Shown: positions 36,778 to 48,113 of the stretch, piece after piece
How positions within the stretch are numbered: position 1 is the stretch's first letter
How the letters are laid out: every line of letters begins with the position of its first letter
Assembly (NCBI RefSeq): GCF_009177095.1
Contig: NZ_AP021861.1
Location: 5,624,501 to 5,688,500 of the forward strand
Direction of reading: 5' to 3'
From: Lacipirellula parvula
GTDB taxonomy: Bacteria; Planctomycetota; Planctomycetia; Pirellulales; Lacipirellulaceae
DNA length: 64,000 nucleotides
Notes under the pieces: model-generated
Seen by the model: only the letters and a program-made list of their open reading frames with translations
Told to the model about the DNA's origin: nothing
Databases searched by the model: none
Translations under genes and position numbers: made by a program

Positions 36778-39700
36778 ATGGGCTACAAGCGCAATGCTGC
36801 GCGGCGGGGACGCTGCGCTGCGAAGAGTGCGTCTCGCAACTCTCGCTCGCTAAGCGTAGAGAGTCTGGAAGATCGCCGGGTGATGGCCGTCGACTTCTCG
36901 TTGCTCAGCGATGCGAACGTCGTTCCGAACGTCAGTTCGTCATCGCTACCGAGCAACTACGTCGAAGTGAACAGCACCGTGTTCTTCACCGCAGCCGATG
37001 GAGTCCGCGGCGTTGAACTCTGGAAAACCGACGGCACGGCTGCAGGAACGCAACTCGTCAAAGACATTCAGCCCGGCGGCCTCAGTTCGACGCCGAGCAG
37101 TCTCGTCAATGTGGGGGGCGTGCTCTACTTCGCGGCCAACGACGGCTCTTCCGGCGTGGAACTCTGGAAGAGCGACGGCACGGCGGAGGGAACCGTGCGC
37201 GTCGCGGATATTCGGCCCGGCGCCAATGGTTCATCTGTGCGCTACCTGACTGACGTTGGCGGAACGCTCTTCTTCGTCGCCAATGACGGCGCCCACGGGT
37301 ACGAGCTTTGGAAGAGCGACGGCAGCAGCAACGGTACGGTGCTGATCAAGGACATTGAAGGGCTTCAGGTTCCGTTGCCAAACGGCGCTCTGGAGAGCAT
37401 GAAGTCGCTTACCAACGTCAACGGCACGCTCTACTTCGTGGCCAATGACGGCGCACACGGTCGCGAAGTCTGGCGAACGGACGGAACCGCCGCGGGAACC
37501 ACGCTGCTAAAGGATATTGGCGATCAGGGAATGTATCCGCGGGCAGGCTCCAACCCGCTGCAACTCGTAAATGTTTCCGGGACGCTGTACTTCACCGCGA
37601 GCGAGTTCTTTAATTTTGGGCCGTTCAACGACCTATGGAAGTCGGACGGATCCGAAGCTGGCACGACTAAATTGACCAATACGGGAGGAGGTGAACAGTT
37701 GCCTGTTGGCAATCTTGTCAATGTCAACGGCACGCTGGTGTTCTCCGCAAACTCCGTAAATCTCGGAACTGAACTTTGGCGCACCGACGGCACGCCGGCA
37801 GGAACGACGCTGCTCCGCGACATCAATCCGGGACAGGCTTCAGGATTCTCCAGCACGCTGAAATCACTCGTTGTCGGAAACCAGCTCTACTTCGCAGCGA
37901 ACGACGGCACGCACGGCTTCGAACTTTGGCGGACCGACGGCACCTCCGCAGGAACGGAATTGGTTTCCGACATTCGCCCAGGACTAGCTGGAAGCGCACC
38001 GACGAATTTCACCGCCATCGGCGGTACGGCGTACTTCACCGCCACGACCGATGAGTTCGGCTCCGAACTGTGGCGCTCTCAAGGAACCGCCGCGACCACG
38101 CAACTAGTAGCTGATACGACCCCCGGCCCGGGATCTCTCAACGTCGGTCTCCCCCTGGCGGGCGAGTCGATCTTCGCGGGCGTGGGGAACGCCGTCTACT
38201 TCCGCAACAACGACGGCGTCAACGGCTCCGAGTTGTGGCGCAGCGATGGCACGGCAGCCGGCACAGGAATGGTGAAGAACATTTCTAGCTTGGCGGGAAG
38301 CTCCGGACCGGCATTACTCACTCCATTCAAAGGATTTACCTACTATATCGCGAACGACGGCGTTCACGGCTACGAACTATGGCGAACCGACGGCACTCCC
38401 GCAGGAACGGCGATGTTCAAGGACCTGCTGCCCGGAGACGCCGGCTCGACGCCAAGCCAGTTGCTGGTCGCCGGCGACTTCCTCTACTTCACGGCGATCT
38501 ACGAATTTGGTCGCGAATTATGGAAAACGGACGGGACCTTCGAGGGAACCACGCTGGTGAAGGACATCCGCCCTTTCGGCGACAGCAGTTCAATTGCCCA
38601 ACTCATCGAAGTTGAAGGCGTGCTCTACTTCACTGCCAACGACGGCCTGACGGGAGTCGAGCTGTGGCGCAGCGATGGAACAGCAGCTGGCACACAGCTC
38701 GTCGTGGACATCGCCGCGGGAGTAGAGAGCAGCCAACCGACCGCGCTCACAAAAGTAGGCAACCGGCTTTACTTCGTCACTGGGGGGTCCTCGTTCAACT
38801 TATGGCAAAGCGACGGCACAGCGGCGGGAACTTCGATGATCGCGAGCGTCCATCCGCAGTCTGGTTCGGCGCCTGGTTCGATAACTGAAGTCAACGGAAC
38901 GCTGTTCTTCCGCACCGGAAATGAGTTGTGGAAGAGCGACGGCACCGCCGCGGGAACCTTGCTTGTGCGAGGATTCAGCTCCTCGAACTACAATACAAGC
39001 GAGTTATTCAACCTCAACGGCGTCCTCTATTTCAGCGCGAACGGAGATTCAGCCGGCACGGAACTATGGCGCAGCGACGGCACAACGGCCGGCACGGTGC
39101 GGGTCAAAGACATTAATCCAACGGGCAGTGGAGCGCCTCAGCGCTTTGTTGAGTTCAATAGTGAACTCTACTTCGTTGCCAATGATGGAACGACCGGCGC
39201 GGAGCTGTGGAAGAGCGACGGCACCGCCGCAGGGACGCAACTCGTGAAGGACGTCTTCCCGGTGCGCGATACAAACATCCCCTTGGATCTCACGAACGTT
39301 CATGGCACGCTTTACTTCAGCGCCAGGAACTCGACCTTTAACAACGAGCTCTGGTCGAGCGACGGCACTGCGGAAGGAACCGTGTTAACGAAAGACTTTA
39401 ACGGGGACTTCAGCGGGAGTCAGCCTAACAACATCACCGTTGTGGGCAACAAGCTGTTCGTAACGGCGGCGACCCCGGCTGAAGGGCTTGAGCTATGGGT
39501 CGCCGATCTCCCTCGTCAAGCAGGCGACTACAACGATGACGGCCGCGTCGACGGCGCCGACTTCCTCGCATGGCAGCGAGACTTTGGTTCTGCAGCGACG
39601 CCCACGGGGAGCGGCGCCGACGGAGACGGCGACGGAGCGATTGGCAGCGGCGACTTGGATGTGTGGAAGGAGGCGTTCGCGCCGCCGGCGATCGCCGCGC

Positions 39701-39933
39701 CGCTGCTGGCTCCCGCGATGACGGCGGAGCAGACGCTGAGCATCGACGAGGTCGCCATCGTGGATACGGAGACGCCAGAATTGCGGCGGACGCCGTTCAC
39801 GGCGCCAACCGTGCCGAGCACTGCACGCTTGGTCGCCCGCGATCAGTTCTTCGCCATCGGCGACGTGTCGAGGATGTTCTCGATTGAAAATGACGGGGCG
39901 ACCGATTGGCTAGCGAAACGCCGGCGGCGGTAA
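36778..39933 (+). CDS. Giant ELWxxDGT-repeat protein with dockerin-like domain (copy 1)
   Basis: This 1051-aa protein begins with a basic N-terminus and the LEPR-XLL-like motif [18 protein letters not shown], found at the start of many planctomycete extracellular proteins. About 17 ELWxxDGT units ([16 protein letters not shown] and so on), each in a ~45-60-residue beta module with LYFxANDG, fill residues 70-900. A dockerin-like calcium-loop module ([18 protein letters not shown] and [15 protein letters not shown]) follows. The tail ends [16 protein letters not shown] and KRRRR. Surface location is inferred; function is unknown. It is the first of three tandem paralogues. Confidence 0.9.
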
Positions 39934-40000
39934 GATTCGCGGCATTATTCGGACAATTGCCGCTCGATCGAATAATTGCAGCGTTTGGCGGGAACAACTA

Positions 40001-40026
40001 GACTGGGGAGGTTCACCTCCCCAGTC
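40001..40026. repeat. 12-bp hairpin between ELWxxDGT copies 1 and 2
   Basis: GACTGGGGAGGT and its complement enclose TC. There is no T tract; the next start codon is 35 nt downstream, so it may shape the 5' leader of copy 2. Confidence 0.7.
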
Positions 40027-40060
40027 CGCCGCCAGCCCGTTGCCCCGACCGCAGATCAAC

Positions 40061-43000
40061 ATGCCGTACGGTCCATCCGATTTCACTCGACGCCCCCAAG
40101 GCAGGTCGTTGCGCGTTGAGACGCTCGAAGAGCGCCGCGTGCTTTCCGTGACAGTGGAGATGCTGACCGACATCGGTTCGATGCCTCAATCTGGCGATTC
40201 CAATCCTTACGGGTTCGTTGAGATCGGCGAGCTGACATACTTCCGCAGCCGACCGTCGTCGTTTGAGCCCGAACAAATCTGGGTCACCAACGGGACGACG
40301 AACGCGACGCGACGATTAAGCGAACTGCTGCCAGGCAACCTGAACGTCAGCGGCATCGCGGGAGACGTCGCCGGCAAGCTCTACTTTTTCGTGAGCGAGA
40401 CGATCCCGTTCCGCTACACGTTGTGGCAGTGGGAAGGATTTGGCAGCGAGCCGACGCCTGTGCTCGACGCCAACGGGCAGAGCGTCGCCGCCGCGACGTC
40501 GCTCACGGAAGTCGACGGCGTTTGGTACTTCGGCGGCGGCGCCGCGAGTTCCGAACTGTGGCGAACCGACGGCACGCAAGCGGGCACGTTCCGCGTCAAG
40601 ACGATCCGCCCGGATGGATTCGCATCGTTCGCACTAGCGATGTTCAACGCGAACGGGACGCTGTTCTTCTCCGCCGACGACGGCACTCACGGCAGGGAAC
40701 TATGGAAGAGCGACGGCACGGAAGCGGGCACCGTGCTTGTGAAAGACATAAATCCGGGGAGCTCAGGAGCCTGGTCGGAACTCGCCGACAAGACGGCTGC
40801 ACTTGTCGGCGACGTCCTTTACTTCGGCGGGAACGATCCCACGGGCGGCGCCGAACTCTGGCGCAGCGATGGCACGGAAGCGGGCACGTTCCGCGTGAAG
40901 GACATCGCCGGCGGCACGAATAGTTCAAATCCGAAGTACCTGACGAACATAGGCGGCGTTCTGTACTTCACGACGAGCCTCAGCGACGTTGGGTTGAACT
41001 TACTGTGGAAAAGCGACGGCACGGAGGCAGGAACCACCGCCATTCCGTTTGGAGGGAGCACCCCGTTCGATTTGACTGAATTCCATGGCGCGCTTTACTT
41101 CGGCGCCAGCGGCGCCCTCTGGCGCAGCGACGGCACGACGGCGGGTACTCAGCGGATCGGAAGGAGCGACTCGCAGTATTTTGGCCTCACGATTCCGTCT
41201 CCTCTGCATCCTGGCAGTACGCTCCATCGCGACAACATCGTTAACTTCAACGGCACGCTCTACTTCCTCAGCGGCAACAGCGCCGGCGGTACTAGCCTAT
41301 GGAAGCTAGCCGAGGGCGAAGCGAACGCGACGTACGTCTTCGGCAGCAACACCCCGCCCCCGCCCTCGCCCTCCTCTCCGATTGTCGATCCGTTGCAGTA
41401 TCTGACCGTCGCGGGCGACAAGCTCTACTTCGCCGGACGTTCCAGCTATTACGGCATCGAGCCGTGGGTTAGCGACGGCACGGTCGCCGGCACGCGCATG
41501 CTGAAGGACATCACCGGCGCCAGTTCCTCCTCGGAAGTCGGCGGACTGATCAACGCCAACGGCACGCTGCGGTTCTTTGGCAGCACTGGAACGACCGCGG
41601 CGCGGCCGCGCGGCTTGTGGTCGAGCGACGGGACGATTCCCGGCACCACGAGCTTCGTTGAGATCGGCGGAAGACTGGACCACTATTCGGTTCTCGGCGT
41701 CGCCGGAGGGTTTACGTTCTTCAAATCAACCGGCGGAAACGCCAACGATTGGGAACTGTGGCGAACCGATGGCACGGCGGCGGGAACGCTGCGGGTGAAA
41801 GACATTCGCCCCGGCGTCGAGAGCAGTCTGGGGAACGGGTTCAGCAACGCCGTCGAGATGAATGGCTTTCTGTACTTCCACGCGAATGACGGTGCGGGCG
41901 GCTTCGAGCTGTGGCGCAGCGACGGCACGGAAGCGGGGACGACGATGGTCGCCGACGTCGCCTCCGGCGCGCCCGCCGGCTTCATCTCGGGATATGGCAC
42001 GTTGGCGAACGTCGGCGGGACGCTCTACTTCGTCGGCAACGACGGCGTGAACGGCTACGCCCTGTGGAAGACGGACGGCACGTCGGCGGGAACTTCGCTC
42101 GTGCGCGGCTTCGCCACTTGGCCCCCGGCCAATCTCTTCAACGCGAACGGTACGCTGTACTTCTGCGGGGGCGACTCGGAACATGGATTCGAACTGTGGA
42201 CCAGCGACGGCACGACGGCGGGGACGCTTCTTGTTAGAGACATCGGGCCCGGCCATTCGCTGTCGCCAACCGATTCGCCAGGCTTTGTGAATATCGGCGA
42301 CACGCTTTACTTCGCCGCCAACGACGGCACCGTCGGTTGGGAATTGTGGCGCAGCGACGGCGCCGCGGACGGCACGCAACTCGTCAAAGATATCCGGCCC
42401 GATGGCGGCAGCGCCTTCACGGGCAGACCCCGACTTACCGTTGTGGGGAACACGGTCTACTTCTTCGCCAACGATGGCGCCCTGGGGGAGGAGTTGTGGA
42501 AGAGCGACGGCACGGAGGCGGGAACCGTGCTCGTGAAAGACATTCAAGTCGGACCGACTTCTTCGCAAGTCGGGGTGATGGCAGAGCCCGTCAACGTCAA
42601 CGGCATTCTCTACTTTGCCGCACGCACCAGCACGACCGGCGTTGAATTGTGGCGCAGCGACGGAACCGACGCAGGCACCTACATGGTGCGCAACCTCAAC
42701 ACGACGATTGGCGGCGCCGGGGGTTCCGATCCGGCCTTGCTCACGAACATCAACGGTCTCCTTTACTTCATCGCGAACGACGGTGTTCACGGCCAAGAGT
42801 TGTGGGTTGCGCGTCCCGAAGCCGTCGAGCCGCTTGCCGGCGATTACAACAACGACGGCCGCGTCGACGGGGCCGACTTCCTGGCATGGCAGCGCGGCTA
42901 CGGTTCTGCAGCGACGCCCGCGGGAAGCGGCGCCGACGGAGATGGCGACGGCGCCGTTGGCGCTAGCGATCTCGACGTGTGGAAGAACCACTTCGGTTCT

Positions 43001-43273
43001 TCAACGCCAAGCACCGCGGCGAGCTCGGCGGCGGTCGCCGCGTTCGTGGCTCCGGCGATCACGGCAGCCGACGAGTTTGAAATTGATGAATTCAACGCCA
43101 CCGCCGCCGCCGTCTCGACAACCGAGGCTGGGGCGACCTCGTCGCGTCTCGCTGCGCGAGACGCCTTATTCGCCGCTGGAGATTTCTCGCGAGTGTCAAC
43201 GATCGAATCGGCGACCGAGTCTTGGGGCGTCAATCGCCGCCGCGGCCGGACCAGCTTGCGGACGCCAACCTGA
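40061..43273 (+). CDS. Giant ELWxxDGT-repeat protein with dockerin-like domain (copy 2)
   Basis: This 1070-aa paralogue of the neighbouring genes has the N-terminal motif SLRVETLEERRVLSVTVE, about 14 ELWxxDGT-type units and the module [18 protein letters not shown] with GDGDGAVGASDLDVW. Its tail SSRLAARDALFAAGDFSRVS is followed by WGVNRRRGR. ATG 40061 is preferred to TTG 40040. The dockerin-like block is almost identical in DNA to those of copies 1 and 3, although the repeat regions differ much more. Extracellular location is inferred. Confidence 0.9.
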   Translation: MPYGPSDFTRRPQGRSLRVETLEERRVLSVTVEMLTDIGSMPQSGDSNPYGFVEIGELTYFRSRPSSFEPEQIWVTNGTTNATRRLSELLPGNLNVSGIAGDVAGKLYFFVSETIPFRYTLWQWEGFGSEPTPVLDANGQSVAAATSLTEVDGVWYFGGGAASSELWRTDGTQAGTFRVKTIRPDGFASFALAMFNANGTLFFSADDGTHGRELWKSDGTEAGTVLVKDINPGSSGAWSELADKTAALVGDVLYFGGNDPTGGAELWRSDGTEAGTFRVKDIAGGTNSSNPKYLTNIGGVLYFTTSLSDVGLNLLWKSDGTEAGTTAIPFGGSTPFDLTEFHGALYFGASGALWRSDGTTAGTQRIGRSDSQYFGLTIPSPLHPGSTLHRDNIVNFNGTLYFLSGNSAGGTSLWKLAEGEANATYVFGSNTPPPPSPSSPIVDPLQYLTVAGDKLYFAGRSSYYGIEPWVSDGTVAGTRMLKDITGASSSSEVGGLINANGTLRFFGSTGTTAARPRGLWSSDGTIPGTTSFVEIGGRLDHYSVLGVAGGFTFFKSTGGNANDWELWRTDGTAAGTLRVKDIRPGVESSLGNGFSNAVEMNGFLYFHANDGAGGFELWRSDGTEAGTTMVADVASGAPAGFISGYGTLANVGGTLYFVGNDGVNGYALWKTDGTSAGTSLVRGFATWPPANLFNANGTLYFCGGDSEHGFELWTSDGTTAGTLLVRDIGPGHSLSPTDSPGFVNIGDTLYFAANDGTVGWELWRSDGAADGTQLVKDIRPDGGSAFTGRPRLTVVGNTVYFFANDGALGEELWKSDGTEAGTVLVKDIQVGPTSSQVGVMAEPVNVNGILYFAARTSTTGVELWRSDGTDAGTYMVRNLNTTIGGAGGSDPALLTNINGLLYFIANDGVHGQELWVARPEAVEPLAGDYNNDGRVDGADFLAWQRGYGSAATPAGSGADGDGDGAVGASDLDVWKNHFGSSTPSTAASSAAVAAFVAPAITAADEFEIDEFNATAAAVSTTEAGATSSRLAARDALFAAGDFSRVSTIESATESWGVNRRRGRTSLRTPT

Positions 43274-43463
43274 TCAGGCATGCCGCGCCCAGCAGCGTCT
43301 GCTTCTTCCCCGCCCGGCGGCTTGATGACGTCGAAATCGCCCGCGCCGAGTCGACCTGAGCTTGCCCGTACCCGCCAAGGCGACTAGCTTGTCGGCATTG
43401 GCTCAACGGCGGCGAAGCGATTTCATCGCTGCGGAACGAGCAGACCAAGAAGGATCTTCGTCG

Positions 43464-46400
43464 ATGGGGCGCGCCATGAATGGATTCGGCAACAGCAGCA
43501 GTTCGCCTAGTTGCAGGCAAGCGAACGGCAACCGCCGCTTGCGCGTTGAGCAGTTGGAACAACGCCAATTGCTCAGCATCTCGCCCTCGATGGTCGTCGA
43601 TGCGAACGACGCGCCCAATTACCTGAGCCTGTCGAAGCATGAGCTCACGGCAGTCGGCGACGACGTCTTCTATGTCGGCCGACCAGACCTCCAAACGACG
43701 GGGCTATGGCGCGTTAACGACTCCACGGGCGAGACTGTGCTCGTAAAAGACTTCCCGCCCGTTGGCCAATTGCCCGAATTACCCCGATATCTCGCCGGCG
43801 TAGGGGGAAAGCTGTTCTTCTGGACGAACAGCGGCGAAGTATATCGCTTGTGGACAAGCGACGGCACGGAGGAGGGTACCCAGCCGTTGCGTACTTTCAA
43901 CCTCTCGATTTCCTATGGCGGATTGGGAATCTTCGCCAATTGGGAGGAAATGAACGGCGACTACTATTTTTCCGCAGACGGCGGCGAAGACGGCTTCGAA
44001 CTCTGGAAGTCGGACGGCACGCTGAGCGGCACGGTCCAGGTCGCCGACGTCAACGCTGGCGTGGCTGATTCATCGCCGACGACGTTTGCGAACGTCAACG
44101 GACTGCTTTACTTCGGAGCCACCAGCGGGACCGCGGCGAGCGAACTGTGGCGTAGCGATGGAACCGAGGCAGGAACGCTGCGAGTGGCGATCCTCCCTGG
44201 AAATTACAGCTACCTGGGAGAGCCTACGGCAGTCGGCGATCGCCTGTTTTTCCGCTACTACGACGGCACGAACGAGCAGGAACTGTGGACCAGCGACGGA
44301 ACGGCGGCCGGGACGAAGATCGCCCGAGACCTATTCACTCCGTCGACAGGCTCGGGACGCGTCGAGCAGTTAACCAACCTCAACGGGGTTCTCTATTTCA
44401 GAGCGAACTCCGGCGCCAACCAGGGCATGTGGCGGAGCGACGGGACCGAGTCGGGCACGCAGCGCATCAATCTGCCGGGCCTAGGCAATCATCCCACGCA
44501 ACTCGCCAACGCTAACGGGACGCTGTACTTCGTGAGTGGCGGGACGGTTCGAACCTACGACCCTGTTACTAACAGCTCGACGCTGCTGGCGGAGTCGCTC
44601 AACGCGCCGTCGTTTCTCGCGTCGGCCGGCGACGTCCTCTACTTCCGAGCCAACGATTACTATCCGGCCACGGGTTACCATCCCGTCATTTACAAGACCG
44701 ATGGAACGCCGCAAGGGACGGCCAAAATCAAAGAGTTCCCCAAGTCGGAATTGTACCTTCAGCCGTCGGCCGTTGCTGCCGTCGGCGAGTCGCTGTACTT
44801 CACCGCGCTTGATCCGACGAGCGGCGAACAGCAACTTTGGAGGACGGAGCCTGGAGTCGGCGCGAACGTCGAGATCCTCGGCAGCCACGATGCGCGAACC
44901 CTCGGCGGCGAGCCCGTTGGTTTCACGGTTGTCGGCGACTGGATGTACTACATCAGCCGCAGTTCAACGCACTGGACGAGCCTGTGGAGAACCGACGGCG
45001 TCAACGCCGAGCTAATCAAAAATCTCCGTCCAGCCGCCTCCGGCGACTATCGCCGCCGTGAGACCGAATTGATCAATGTCGCCGGCACGCTCTACTTCAC
45101 CGCCACCGACGGCGAGCATGGCTATGAGTTGTGGAAGAGCGACGGCACGACGGCGGGCACGCTGATGGTCAAAGACATTCTCGTCTCCGACCAATCGCTG
45201 AAAGCTGCTTACCCGCAAATGCTCACCAACGTCGAAGGCGCCCTCTACTTCACGGCTTCCGACACGACTTGGAACTCTCCCGTACTGTGGAAGAGCGACG
45301 GAACCGCCGCGGGGACGGCGCCGCTGGCGGGGCACGTTTCGTATCCGAAGCGCCTCGTCAGCTTCAAGGGAGAGCTCTACTACACCGCTGGCTCAGGCAC
45401 GGTGATAGGCAAGACCGACGGGACTGCGGCGGGAACTGTTCAAGTCAGCCCGGCGGGAACCTTCTTTCAGTTTGACCCTTCGTCTCGTTTGATTGTTTCA
45501 GGCGACGCGCTCTATTTCCTTGCCAACGACGGCGTCTCCGGGACGGAGCTCTGGAAATCGGACGGCACGACGGCCGGAACGCATTTGATCAGACAGTCGG
45601 CGCCAGGAATCGGGGCCATGCCGATCGATTCGCTGTTCGGCGCCTACGGCAAGCTCTACTTCGCGGAGAGCGGATGGCTGTGGTCCACCGATGGCACGGC
45701 CGGCGGTACGACCAAAATTCTCTCGCTCGATGCAGCTTCAGGTTTCGATGGGAAGTTCGCCGCGCATGACGACTACGTTTACTTCACGTCTGAGGAATAC
45801 TCCCCTCCGACAAGAACGCCGATCGTGTGGAAAACCGACGGCACGGCCGCTGGCACGGCGGTCGTCGCTCGTCTAGCCGCCACGCCTGTCAACGAGTATT
45901 CGGAACGGCGATTTACCGCCGTCGACGACCGACTTTATCTGGTCAGCATCTGGTCAGACCAGCTGAAGGCGGCGTGGGAAATCGGCGAGACGTCGGCGAC
46001 TTCGCTCGGCGCTCTACCCTTGCAATTGAAGGTGGATTACTTCTGGCCGGCAATCGCCTTCAATTCTGACATTTATTTCAGCGGAAACGACGGCGTTCAT
46101 GGTGCAGAGCTCTGGAGGCTATTCGGCCCGAAGAAGCTAGCGGGCGACTACAACGACGACGGCCGCGTCGACGGGGCCGACTTCTTAGCGTGGCAACGCG
46201 GATACGGTTCCGCAGCGACGCCCGCGGGCAGCGGCGCCGACGGGGATGACGACGGGACGGTTGGCGCCGGCGATCTCAAGGTGTGGAAGGGGAATTACGG
46301 CGCAAACACAGCCGTAACATCCGCAGCAATGGCGACGTCCGACGCGCCGGCGATCGCTGCCGCGGCGCTCGTGGCGAGCGAAGAGTTTGAGGAAGGCGCG

Positions 46401-46526
46401 TTTGATGGCGACGCCCTCCCAACGACGGTGCGCGACCGCATCTTCGCTGCCGGCGACTTCTCGCTCCTTTACACGACTGACAGCGAGCAAGATTTCGTCC
46501 GCGAGCGCTGGCGGCGACGGCGATAG
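43464..46526 (+). CDS. Giant ELWxxDGT-repeat protein with dockerin-like domain (copy 3)
   Basis: This 1020-aa paralogue has the N-terminal motif RLRVEQLEQRQLLSIS, about 13 more degenerate repeat units (WKSDGT, IYKTDGT, VWKTDGT), the dockerin-like block [18 protein letters not shown] and the tail TVRDRIFAAGDFSLLYT ending RERWRRRR. ATG 43464 is chosen because AGAAGGA lies 9 nt upstream; ATG 43476 is an alternative. It is the most divergent of the three. The dockerin-like module could bind cohesin-like partners; none is seen in the window. Confidence 0.9.
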   Translation: MGRAMNGFGNSSSSPSCRQANGNRRLRVEQLEQRQLLSISPSMVVDANDAPNYLSLSKHELTAVGDDVFYVGRPDLQTTGLWRVNDSTGETVLVKDFPPVGQLPELPRYLAGVGGKLFFWTNSGEVYRLWTSDGTEEGTQPLRTFNLSISYGGLGIFANWEEMNGDYYFSADGGEDGFELWKSDGTLSGTVQVADVNAGVADSSPTTFANVNGLLYFGATSGTAASELWRSDGTEAGTLRVAILPGNYSYLGEPTAVGDRLFFRYYDGTNEQELWTSDGTAAGTKIARDLFTPSTGSGRVEQLTNLNGVLYFRANSGANQGMWRSDGTESGTQRINLPGLGNHPTQLANANGTLYFVSGGTVRTYDPVTNSSTLLAESLNAPSFLASAGDVLYFRANDYYPATGYHPVIYKTDGTPQGTAKIKEFPKSELYLQPSAVAAVGESLYFTALDPTSGEQQLWRTEPGVGANVEILGSHDARTLGGEPVGFTVVGDWMYYISRSSTHWTSLWRTDGVNAELIKNLRPAASGDYRRRETELINVAGTLYFTATDGEHGYELWKSDGTTAGTLMVKDILVSDQSLKAAYPQMLTNVEGALYFTASDTTWNSPVLWKSDGTAAGTAPLAGHVSYPKRLVSFKGELYYTAGSGTVIGKTDGTAAGTVQVSPAGTFFQFDPSSRLIVSGDALYFLANDGVSGTELWKSDGTTAGTHLIRQSAPGIGAMPIDSLFGAYGKLYFAESGWLWSTDGTAGGTTKILSLDAASGFDGKFAAHDDYVYFTSEEYSPPTRTPIVWKTDGTAAGTAVVARLAATPVNEYSERRFTAVDDRLYLVSIWSDQLKAAWEIGETSATSLGALPLQLKVDYFWPAIAFNSDIYFSGNDGVHGAELWRLFGPKKLAGDYNDDGRVDGADFLAWQRGYGSAATPAGSGADGDDDGTVGAGDLKVWKGNYGANTAVTSAAMATSDAPAIAAAALVASEEFEEGAFDGDALPTTVRDRIFAAGDFSLLYTTDSEQDFVRERWRRRR

Positions 46527-46799
46527 ACGGGCTGTCCTTAGCTCAGGTTCGAAGCAACTCGTAGCTGCTACAGCCAACGCGAAGGGGGGCCTTGCGCAAC
46601 CGATCCGCCTTGGTTGCGCGACCTCGAAGTCGCATCTACGGGCCAATTGCGGCTCGGCGCAGCCGCATGCTAGTAGCCGGCGTACCGGCCGGGGTAGGCG
46701 ACCCGGCGGGGGGGCGGTAGGCTGATTGTCTGCCGGAGAGCCCGGGCGGAGCGCCGGGGTCGAGACGGCCCGGCTCGCTGTTGTCTGTTGGAACTTGCT

Positions 46800-48113
46800 A
46801 TGTCTGCTGCTGATCGTCGTGTTGTCATCACTGGCTTGGGGATCGTTTCGCCGCTGGGGAGCGACCTGACAGAATTCTGGTCGGCGCTCATCGGCGGCCG
46901 TAGCGGGATCGAGACGCTGGTGAACCTCCCTGCCCTCGACGGCAAGGTCGCGTTCGGCGGCGAGTGCCGGCAGTTTGCGGGCGAGATCGACAACTTCGGC
47001 GAACTCGAAAAGGACCTGAAGAAGTCGATCCGCAAGGCGCTCAAAATGATGTGCCGCGAGTCGATGATGGCGGTCGCCGCGTCGCAGCACGCGATCGTCG
47101 ACGGCGGCTTCGGCGCCACGCCCATGGAGGCTGAACGCTCGGGCGTCGTCTTCGGCAGCGACTACATGCTCAGCCCGCCCGAGGATTTCATCAGCGCGAT
47201 GAAGAAGGCGGGGATCGGCGCCGGCGGGTTCGAGTACGGCAAATGGGGGACCGACGGCCTCCGCGACATGAATCCGCTGTGGATGCTCAGCTACCTGCCC
47301 AACATGCCGGCCAGCCATGTGGCGATCTTCAACGACCTGCAGGGGCCGAACAATTCGCTCACGATGCGCGAGGCGTCGGGGCTGATGGCGATCCGCGAGG
47401 CGGCGCAAACGATCGCCCGCGGCCATGCCGACCGGATGATCGCCGGCGCCACGGGAACGCGCATCCATTCGTTCAAGACGGTGCATGCGACGCAGTCGGA
47501 GCAGCTCGCGAACCCCGAGTTGCCGGCCCACGAAGCTTGCCGGCCGTTCGATCTCAACCGCAGCGGCATGGTCGTCGGCGAAGGCGCCGGCGCCATCTTG
47601 CTCGAAGAATACGAGTCGGCAAAAGCTCGCGGGGCCAAGATCTACGGCGAGTTGCTCAGCACCGGCAGTAGCGCGGTGGCCGACGCGAACCTGAAAGGGG
47701 CTCGCGAAGTCGCGCTGGCGAACGCCGCGAAGGCCGCCCTCGCCGCATCGGGAATCGATCCGGCACAGCTCGGCCACGTCTCGGCCCACGCGATGGGCAC
47801 CCGTGCTGGCGACGTCGAAGAAGCGGTCGCCCTCCGCGAGGCGCTCGGCGACCGCGTGAAGGAAGTGCCGGTGGTCGCCGCGAAGAGCTTCTTCGGCAAC
47901 CTCGGCGCCGGCGGCGGCGTCGTCGAAACGGTCGCCAGCCTGCTGGCCCTCCGCGAAGGGACGCTGTTCCCGACGCTCAATTTTTCGACGCCCGATCCAG
48001 AGTGTCCGGTGCGCGCCTCCGGCGCCGCGGATCTCTCGGCTGGCCAGAGCTTTTTGAAACTGAGCGTCACCCCGCAGGGCCAAGCGGCCGCGTTGGTAGT
48101 CGCCAAGGTGTAG
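46800..48113 (+). CDS. Beta-ketoacyl synthase homologue lacking catalytic Cys (KS-beta-like)
   Basis: This 437-aa thiolase-fold protein aligns with FabF over its length (start RRVVITGLGIVSPLGSDL, end LSVTPQGQAAALVV), but its active site is changed. The Cys position in TACAS is Glu191 in SLTMREASG. The first His remains (H330, SAHAMGTRAGD). The second His is Asn367 in KSFFGNLGAGGG. It cannot do normal condensation. Similar substitution is known in chain-length factors and decarboxylating KSQ domains. It may partner a KS-alpha such as the FabF here or act as a scaffold. It sits upstream of the nusA operon behind repeats. Confidence 0.85.
   Translation: MSAADRRVVITGLGIVSPLGSDLTEFWSALIGGRSGIETLVNLPALDGKVAFGGECRQFAGEIDNFGELEKDLKKSIRKALKMMCRESMMAVAASQHAIVDGGFGATPMEAERSGVVFGSDYMLSPPEDFISAMKKAGIGAGGFEYGKWGTDGLRDMNPLWMLSYLPNMPASHVAIFNDLQGPNNSLTMREASGLMAIREAAQTIARGHADRMIAGATGTRIHSFKTVHATQSEQLANPELPAHEACRPFDLNRSGMVVGEGAGAILLEEYESAKARGAKIYGELLSTGSSAVADANLKGAREVALANAAKAALAASGIDPAQLGHVSAHAMGTRAGDVEEAVALREALGDRVKEVPVVAAKSFFGNLGAGGGVVETVASLLALREGTLFPTLNFSTPDPECPVRASGAADLSAGQSFLKLSVTPQGQAAALVVAKV

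Follow-up and report, generated by a model that had tools for sequence, protein, structure and literature searches.

A C-terminal tail without a membrane helix on LEPR-XLL-type proteins of Lacipirellula, a candidate sorting or attachment tag

Three tandem open reading frames (ORFs) in positions 5,624,501–5,688,500 of the single-contig 6.92 Mb Lacipirellula parvula genome (the window, 64,000 nucleotides) encode ELWxxDGT-repeat proteins (TIGR04534, cut-off 65 bits; scores 929, 635, and 373 bits), each with a short C-terminal tail. This tail is spread over unrelated protein bodies, its core is conserved above the preceding linker, and it lacks a membrane helix. It occurs on proteins that start with a LEPR-XLL-type motif (PF07595), and this start is paired with an end that has no PEP-CTERM. 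These results suggest that the tail may well serve one export class of planctomycete surface proteins as a short C-terminal tag for sorting or attachment, a reading that we put forward tentatively. The N-terminal motif was already known; the tail would belong with the C-terminal homology regions of sorting type, but it has no membrane helix and is matched to a signal at the N-terminus.

Architecture and conservation of the tail

In all three window proteins, the C-terminal region follows the same order: a dockerin stretch, in which two EF-hand-like motifs are visible, comes first, then a linker of variable sequence, then the core [AV]-R-D-x-x-F-A-x-G-D, and finally a basic end. The tails of proteins 2 and 3 read ARDALFAAGDFS and VRDRIFAAGDFS, and the terminal basic runs are KRRRR, NRRRGR, and RWRRRR in proteins 1, 2, and 3, respectively. 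A sequence-only reading of the window had described the motif and an Arg-rich terminus in all three proteins. The motif and the basic run after the dockerin were seen in each, but protein 2 has seven more residues (TSLRTPT) after the Arg run, which is therefore not its very end. The term "giant", used in the same reading, is an overstatement for proteins of about 1,050 residues. At the N-terminus, the RxLxxExLExRxL pattern is plain in all three proteins, although their PF07595 scores are below the cut-off. The features are as follows; the tail cores and basic ends were delimited by reading the tails and in the conservation test.

36778..39933, + strand: ELWxxDGT protein 1, 1051 residues, ORF with 929 bits to TIGR04534
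36844..36894, + strand: LEPR-XLL-type N-terminal motif of protein 1, PF07595 18.3 bits, below the cut-off of 25.5
39520..39663, + strand: dockerin type I-like module of protein 1, PF00404 19.9 bits, below the cut-off of 22.9
39835..39882, + strand: tail core of protein 1, 16 residues
39883..39930, + strand: basic end of protein 1, ...AKRRRR
40040..43273, + strand: ELWxxDGT protein 2, 1077 residues, ORF with 635 bits to TIGR04534
40097..40153, + strand: LEPR-XLL-type N-terminal motif RSLRVETLEERRVLSV of protein 2, PF07595 15.8 bits, below the cut-off of 25.5
42836..42991, + strand: dockerin type I module of protein 2, PF00404 24.8 bits, above the cut-off of 22.9
43154..43201, + strand: tail core ARDALFAAGDFSRVST of protein 2, partly under a low-confidence predicted helix
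43202..43270, + strand: basic end ...NRRRGRTSLRTPT of protein 2
43362..46526, + strand: ELWxxDGT protein 3, 1054 residues, ORF with 373 bits to TIGR04534; TTG start, the real start may be downstream
43533..43574, + strand: LEPR-XLL-type N-terminal motif RRLRVEQLEQRQLLSI of protein 3, PF07595 17.6 bits, below the cut-off of 25.5
46140..46280, + strand: dockerin type I-like module of protein 3, PF00404 16.9 bits, below the cut-off of 22.9
46428..46475, + strand: tail core VRDRIFAAGDFSLLYT of protein 3
46476..46523, + strand: basic end of protein 3, ...RERWRRRR

The conservation test took in 16 of the 19 tail-bearing proteins, the other three being dropped because the dockerin regular expression failed. 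In 99 between-genome pairs, the identities were 0.53 for the dockerin (0.26 after shuffling), 0.34 for the linker (0.32), 0.56 for the 16-residue core (0.19), and 0.37 for the end (0.27), where the core identity is partly ascertained, as 13 of the 16 proteins were chosen wholly or partly by their tails. The linker is thus poorly conserved and the tail stands out against it, as the sequence-only reading had proposed. Lys and Arg made up 32% of the tail end versus 4% of the linker, and the net charge of the last 12 residues was +2 to +6 in all 16 proteins. The distance from the core to the stop codon was 14–23 residues, and the linker spanned 12–49 residues. This layout, a short motif and a basic end after a variable linker, resembles that of a sorting signal, also in agreement with that reading. 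The strict pattern RDxxFAxGD was present in none of the 43 other LEPR-type tails of the same genome, and in at most one of 43 in any of 500 shuffles, indicating that its presence in all three window proteins is not due to chance.

The absence of a hydrophobic helix, by which the tail had been distinguished from PEP-CTERM, was borne out: the best 12-residue hydropathies in the last 45 residues of proteins 1, 2, and 3 were 1.04, 0.75, and 1.22, respectively, compared to a median of 2.32 for the PEP-CTERM proteins of the genome. No PEP motif was found in the last 60 residues of the three proteins. None of 21 tails matched any Pfam model at an expectation value (E) of 1 or below; with NCBIfam, one of the 21 was matched, at E 0.055, and no model fits the tail. 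The search for solved structures yielded no match to the tail at E ≤ 1. The possibility that the tail is a PEP-CTERM or another catalogued tail was rejected on these grounds: no PEP, no hydrophobic helix, and no fit to a Pfam or NCBIfam model.

Distribution of the strict tail

In the L. parvula genome, a profile of the three window tails matched only itself at good E-values, and among its ten weak matches, those at E 0.5 and 1.6 proved to be the C-termini of two further ELWxxDGT proteins, ...SAVDAFYASGDLMHLFSDAR... and ...AAVDALYAAGDFTSLFAEAR.... A profile of these five tails, for which every candidate in 43 genomes of the family was scored, detected 16 new copies at E ≤ 0.012 in four of the five other genomes of the genus, Lacipirellula limnantheis among them (where 10 of 20 selected stretches were examined). 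At this threshold, no copy was detected in the genus genome G038, and the remaining 37 genomes of the family gave no match as good as 0.012 (best E 0.018).

The bodies of the 16 new copies comprise nine ELWxxDGT proteins, three with a HELGHTLGL zinc-peptidase-like stretch, one containing SdrD-B, two without another significant Pfam domain, and one that is FG-GAP-like by eye. Two of the HELGHTLGL proteins were scanned and matched reprolysin/M66 models below the cut-offs, and the third is alike by eye. A LEPR-type N-terminus was present in 15 of the 16 (nine by PF07595 in the same frame, two by pattern, and four by eye) and was not seen in the sixteenth, L287, a 430-residue frame. The sequence-only reading had set a search of other planctomycete proteins as its test beforehand and had named confinement to the three paralogues, with loss in orthologues, as the outcome that would speak against it. 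The 16 copies on several bodies led us to reject such a confined relic, and the tail is kept within the genus and on other protein types.

A profile built from 21 tails gave no convincing match outside the genus in 396 Pirellulales genomes (next best E 0.0035); of its 22 strong matches in that search, 21 were found by construction and only L329 was new. It matched none but its own tails at E ≤ 0.001 in 392 genomes across the phylum. In both searches 19 candidates were scored per genome, and therefore the absence outside the genus is not proof.

These data bear on the possibility that the tail is an evolutionary passenger, which was spread within the genus by duplication or recombination as a block of dockerin, linker, and tail, and has no function of its own. 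The AAGDF form is restricted to the genus as far as searched and occurs partly in tandem paralogues, and the tail copies that were read follow a dockerin-like stretch by eye, all of which would suit a passenger. However, identity in the linker that joins dockerin and tail does not rise above chance, whereas that in the core, partly ascertained as it is, does; dockerins are present in the PEP class without the tail; and other genera show enrichment of a looser motif, as described below. We consider a passenger unlikely.

Two further observations concern individual tails and ELWxxDGT genes. An ELWxxDGT gene of the L. parvula genome at 5,523,546–5,520,255 on the − strand (L174) has its LEPR N-terminus and the rest in different frames, which is a frameshift, either real or a sequencing error. 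The tails of L292, L295, and L296 end in [RG]R[RW]GRAPLARRG; they may bear a chance likeness to the RAPP/RAPG motifs of arrest peptides.

Pairing of the N- and C-terminal ends

In a census of the L. parvula genome, 164 open frames matched Dockerin_1 or PF07595, 47 with the N-terminal motif (LEPR frames, some of which may not be true members) and 117 with the dockerin only. For this census, 150 of 379 dockerin and 150 of 246 N-terminal candidates were scored, and 150 of 154 dockerin matches entered. The N-terminal matches were classed up to E 3, leaving 5 of 52 unclassed (one frame of 8078 residues and four with E > 1).

The strict [VIL]PEP pattern was found in the last 60 residues of 109 of the 117 dockerin-only frames and of none of the 47 LEPR frames. 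When the pattern was loosened to include PEA/PEC-type variants, it was present, among the dockerin carriers, in 0 of 24 LEPR frames versus 113 of 115 complete LEPR-less frames (the 117 minus two cut by the stretch end; Fisher p = 6e-25). The two exceptions were a frameshifted, tail-bearing LEPR protein with its start in the neighbouring frame and a protein with an AEPAS-type end. Over all LEPR frames, the loosened pattern matched 1 of 47, a chance LPEA in a helix-less tail. Conversely, D.[AVLI][FY] was present in the last 100 residues of 17 of the 24 LEPR dockerin carriers, versus 7 of the 115 LEPR-less ones (p = 3e-11). Both classes share the dockerin, which is therefore common property, and the type of C-terminus can be predicted from that of the N-terminus: the two ends go together. 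At 80 loci on named Pirellulales contigs, none of the 16 definite LEPR frames had a PEP end (visible in 12; four run off the contig), and none of the 43 PEP frames had a LEPR start (the N-terminus was cut off in seven). A LEPR start is thus paired with a PEP-less end.

The two classes also differ in their hydropathy. A hydrophobic 12-residue stretch (≥1.8) was present in the last 45 residues of 1 of 46 LEPR proteins and 112 of 113 PEP proteins. In the first 245 residues, scored by one rule for both, the counts were 14 of 46 and 108 of 113, respectively, compared to 10 of 46 and 28 of 113 in a mid-protein control; around the LEPR motif itself, a stretch was found in 1 of 46 LEPR proteins. The N-terminal contrast is weaker under equal scoring than under scoring around the motif, but it stands. 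Therefore, LEPR proteins are mostly without hydrophobic helices at both ends, and PEP proteins mostly have both. The genome encodes an exosortase (TIGR02602, 122.1 bits, cut-off 105.55), which presumably serves the PEP class.

In 45 of 46 LEPR proteins, no hydrophobic stretch surrounds the N-terminal motif (32 of 46 lack one in the first 245 residues). This would be in line with the tail being the C-terminal secretion signal of a type I system, with its ATP-binding cassette (ABC) exporter, or of a comparable one-step route. The C-terminal signals of type I substrates are typically poorly conserved and contain a short helix. However, no HlyB- or PrtD-type exporter over the cut-off was found in the whole genome, where the curated cut-offs are strict, so that a divergent exporter could score below them, and the LssB-type model was not run genome-wide. 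Three full-length exporters fitted cyanophycin-associated or MsbA models best, all below the cut-offs, and by eye the tail is missing from LEPR proteins that terminate in calcium-binding repeats. This disfavours a type I signal, which we regard as very improbable. Separately, L113 of the L. parvula genome and L268 and L269 of its relatives are LEPR proteins with hemolysin-type calcium-binding repeats at the end and, by eye, without the usual type I tail.

The pairing also bears on a post-export role, in which the tail would be a partner-binding motif: a tethered short helix that takes part in building the surface layer, but not in sorting, by docking to another protein of the matrix or wall or to a neighbouring protein's N-terminal motif. 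The short core on a disordered, fast-changing linker lies beside the dockerin, itself a docking module, and LEPR proteins are often long and of surface type (our census and the available part of PMC8567305), both of which speak for such binding. Partner binding alone, however, leaves unexplained the link of the tail to LEPR and not to PEP-CTERM, given that both classes have the dockerin, and we judge it somewhat unlikely.

A looser motif among LEPR C-termini of Pirellulales

A de novo search of the last 120 residues of the 47 LEPR proteins of the L. parvula genome yielded A-[VLR]-D-A-A-F-A, and the same search in ten further Pirellulales genomes (57 LEPR proteins) yielded [LRVA]-D-[AE]-[AV]-[FL]-[AE]-x-[LW]. 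When real and shuffled tails were searched equally hard (250 starts each), the log-likelihoods were 136–145 versus 102–110 in eight shuffles for the former, and 156–157 versus 105–117 in eight shuffles for the latter. Internal windows of the L. parvula proteins scored above the tails (210–218 versus 143, width 8), but they contain repeats and were judged unusable as a control, so that shuffles were used instead. The relatives were sampled as 40 of 82 other-genus matches and 20 of 26 from three other families, mostly better-scoring, longer frames; 58 of the 60 were complete, and 57 of these had at least 400 residues.

The de novo motif is concentrated at the C-terminus. Counted in 50-residue bins from the end, it occurred in 15 and 8 of the 47 L. 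parvula LEPR proteins and then in 1 to 5 per bin, and in 13 and 13 of the 57 relatives and then in 2 to 6, compared to 2 and 2, then 10 and 6, of 113 PEP proteins. D..FA, a pattern defined on the window proteins, was present in 10 of 43 tails of the same genome, 8 of 40 from other genera, and 5 of 18 from other families, exceeding all 1000 shuffles and internal draws in each set, and in 1 of 109 PEP proteins. The pattern D.[AVLI]F, chosen after the tails of the same genome had been read, was present in 23 of 43, 15 of 40, and 8 of 18, respectively, the last of these counts equalling, but not exceeding, the highest obtained in 1000 shuffles and in 1000 internal draws. By eye, five of the eleven L. 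parvula frames with at least three ELWxxDGT-like repeats have the AAGD form, and the rest have a looser h-D/N-x-A-F/L variant.

These sequence comparisons suggest that the window tail is probably a Lacipirellula-specific elaboration of a weak motif that is more widely distributed at LEPR C-termini and has the looser form h-D-x-A-F-x-x-L. The strict and loose forms are linked by their position and common D-x-x-F core rather than by any demonstrated descent. The Arg-rich end, which the sequence-only reading had included in the tail, is not general and belongs to the Lacipirellula form. Membership of the LEPR-XLL class, the exclusion of PEP-CTERM, and the looser Pirellulales motif had been missed in the sequence-only reading.

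Other types of end were observed among LEPR proteins. L229, L234, L238, L243, L247, and L252, from two other genera (G011 and G001), end by eye in WLxDELLExVFG or a looser version, which is possibly another lineage-specific end tag. In the L. parvula genome, L085, L142, and L180, of the parallel beta-helix type by eye, end in DQRG[FW]DR...DIGA[LV]EL plus a few residues, without linker or tag.

Structure prediction

The model of protein 1 has a predicted all-beta body, and its top Foldseek neighbours are LRP/megalin and GH74 chains (TM-scores 0.13–0.21), which are propellers; the ELWxxDGT bodies resemble beta-propellers in the predicted model. For the dockerin and tail of protein 2, a low-confidence helix was predicted at residues 100–115 of the construct, which correspond to the first part of the core, and then at residues 121–126, with a predicted local distance difference test (pLDDT) score of about 60. 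The full-length model of protein 1 (mean pLDDT 62.6) has a helix at residues 1015–1027, and the pLDDT of the tail is about 30. Docking of the tail on the propeller or on the N-terminus was not supported by the full-length model, in which both ends were of low confidence and no confident contact could be read.

Genomic context of the trio

The trio is flanked by a methyltransferase gene on one side, and by a beta-ketoacyl-synthase-like ORF (by translation) and a nusA-like gene downstream; this neighbourhood gives no hint of function. Long antisense ORFs at 41726–42991 and 46185–48083 of the window, both on the − strand, lie opposite longer coding frames and are most likely high-GC by-products.

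Discussion

We infer the sorting, receptor, and processing roles of the tail from its behaviour: it is short and terminal, sits on a fast-changing linker, is carried by unrelated bodies, and is predicted by the type of N-terminus, as would be expected of a sorting or attachment tag. The tagged proteins would start with a LEPR-XLL-type motif in place of a clear hydrophobic signal peptide. After a disordered linker, they would present a short, possibly helical segment, h-D-x-A-F, which in Lacipirellula would take the form A-x-D-A-h-F/Y-A-A-G-D-F-x-x-L-F with a basic end. The tag would thereby stand where proteins of the other class have PEP-CTERM; in that class, a hydrophobic N-terminus is combined with PEP, a membrane helix, and a basic end. 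An envelope receptor or protease may recognize the tag and hold or release the protein at the surface. Since no membrane helix is present at the tag, a membrane-embedded sortase would be an unlikely reader, and a soluble or surface receptor or protease would be more likely.

Several results weigh against a sorting or attachment tag. The AAGDF form with its basic end was found in one genus only, as far as searched. About half of the LEPR proteins are without the strict motif, many have no clear motif, and in some a globular domain or calcium-binding repeats run right up to the C-terminus. The PF07595 cut-off was passed by 13 of the 52 N-terminal matches of the L. parvula genome, and hence some of the 47 LEPR frames may not be true members. 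The helicity of the tail is of low confidence in both models (pLDDT of about 60 and 30), and a claim that the core forms an amphipathic helix was not supported, the cores being no better than shuffles. In addition, no receptor or processing enzyme for the tag was found.

In a broader form, the sorting or attachment reading would imply that Pirellulales have a second sorting code beside PEP-CTERM/exosortase. LEPR-XLL and an h-D-x-A-F tag without a membrane helix would form a matched pair on the same protein, and a machinery that reads this pair would export and fix large surface proteins although they have no hydrophobic signal peptide of the classical type. The tag would have diversified by lineage, as AAGDF plus a basic end in Lacipirellula and perhaps as an ELLExVFG-type end in two other genera. 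We offer this code as a possibility toward which we remain more doubtful than inclined. If it is true, a C-terminal partner exclusive of PEP-CTERM would provide a second handle on the LEPR export pathway, and would permit a direct genetic and biochemical test by removing either end and locating the protein. The available part of PMC8567305 describes no such pathway.

Comparison with known systems

Among the literature matches listed, the titles and the openings of the abstracts contained nothing on such a C-terminal motif. According to the available part of PMC8567305, the LEPR-XLL N-terminal motif was described as a novel export signal in Rhodopirellula baltica (Studholme 2004, cited therein); of the 10 longest proteins of T. 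immobilis, 8 carry it. The tagged proteins have this motif or a close variant; PF07595, however, is N-terminal, and that part of PMC8567305 does not mention a matching C-terminal element.

Type I secretion signals are likewise C-terminal and weakly conserved, with a short helix and no N-terminal signal peptide. In contrast, the Lacipirellula tail has a basic end, and a canonical exporter was not found in the L. parvula genome with the HlyB and PrtD models. Dockerin type I lies directly before the linker and tail; as it is also present in the PEP-CTERM class, it does not define the tag.

The closest parallel in layout is the PEP-CTERM/exosortase (EpsH) system, in which a short C-terminal region with a basic end likewise follows a variable linker on otherwise unrelated exported proteins. 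Phylogenetic profiling has been applied to that system, according to the title of PMC1569441. That pathway is itself present in the L. parvula genome, with an exosortase and 109 strict-PEP frames, whereas the Lacipirellula tail has neither the PEP motif nor the membrane helix and is carried by another class of proteins.

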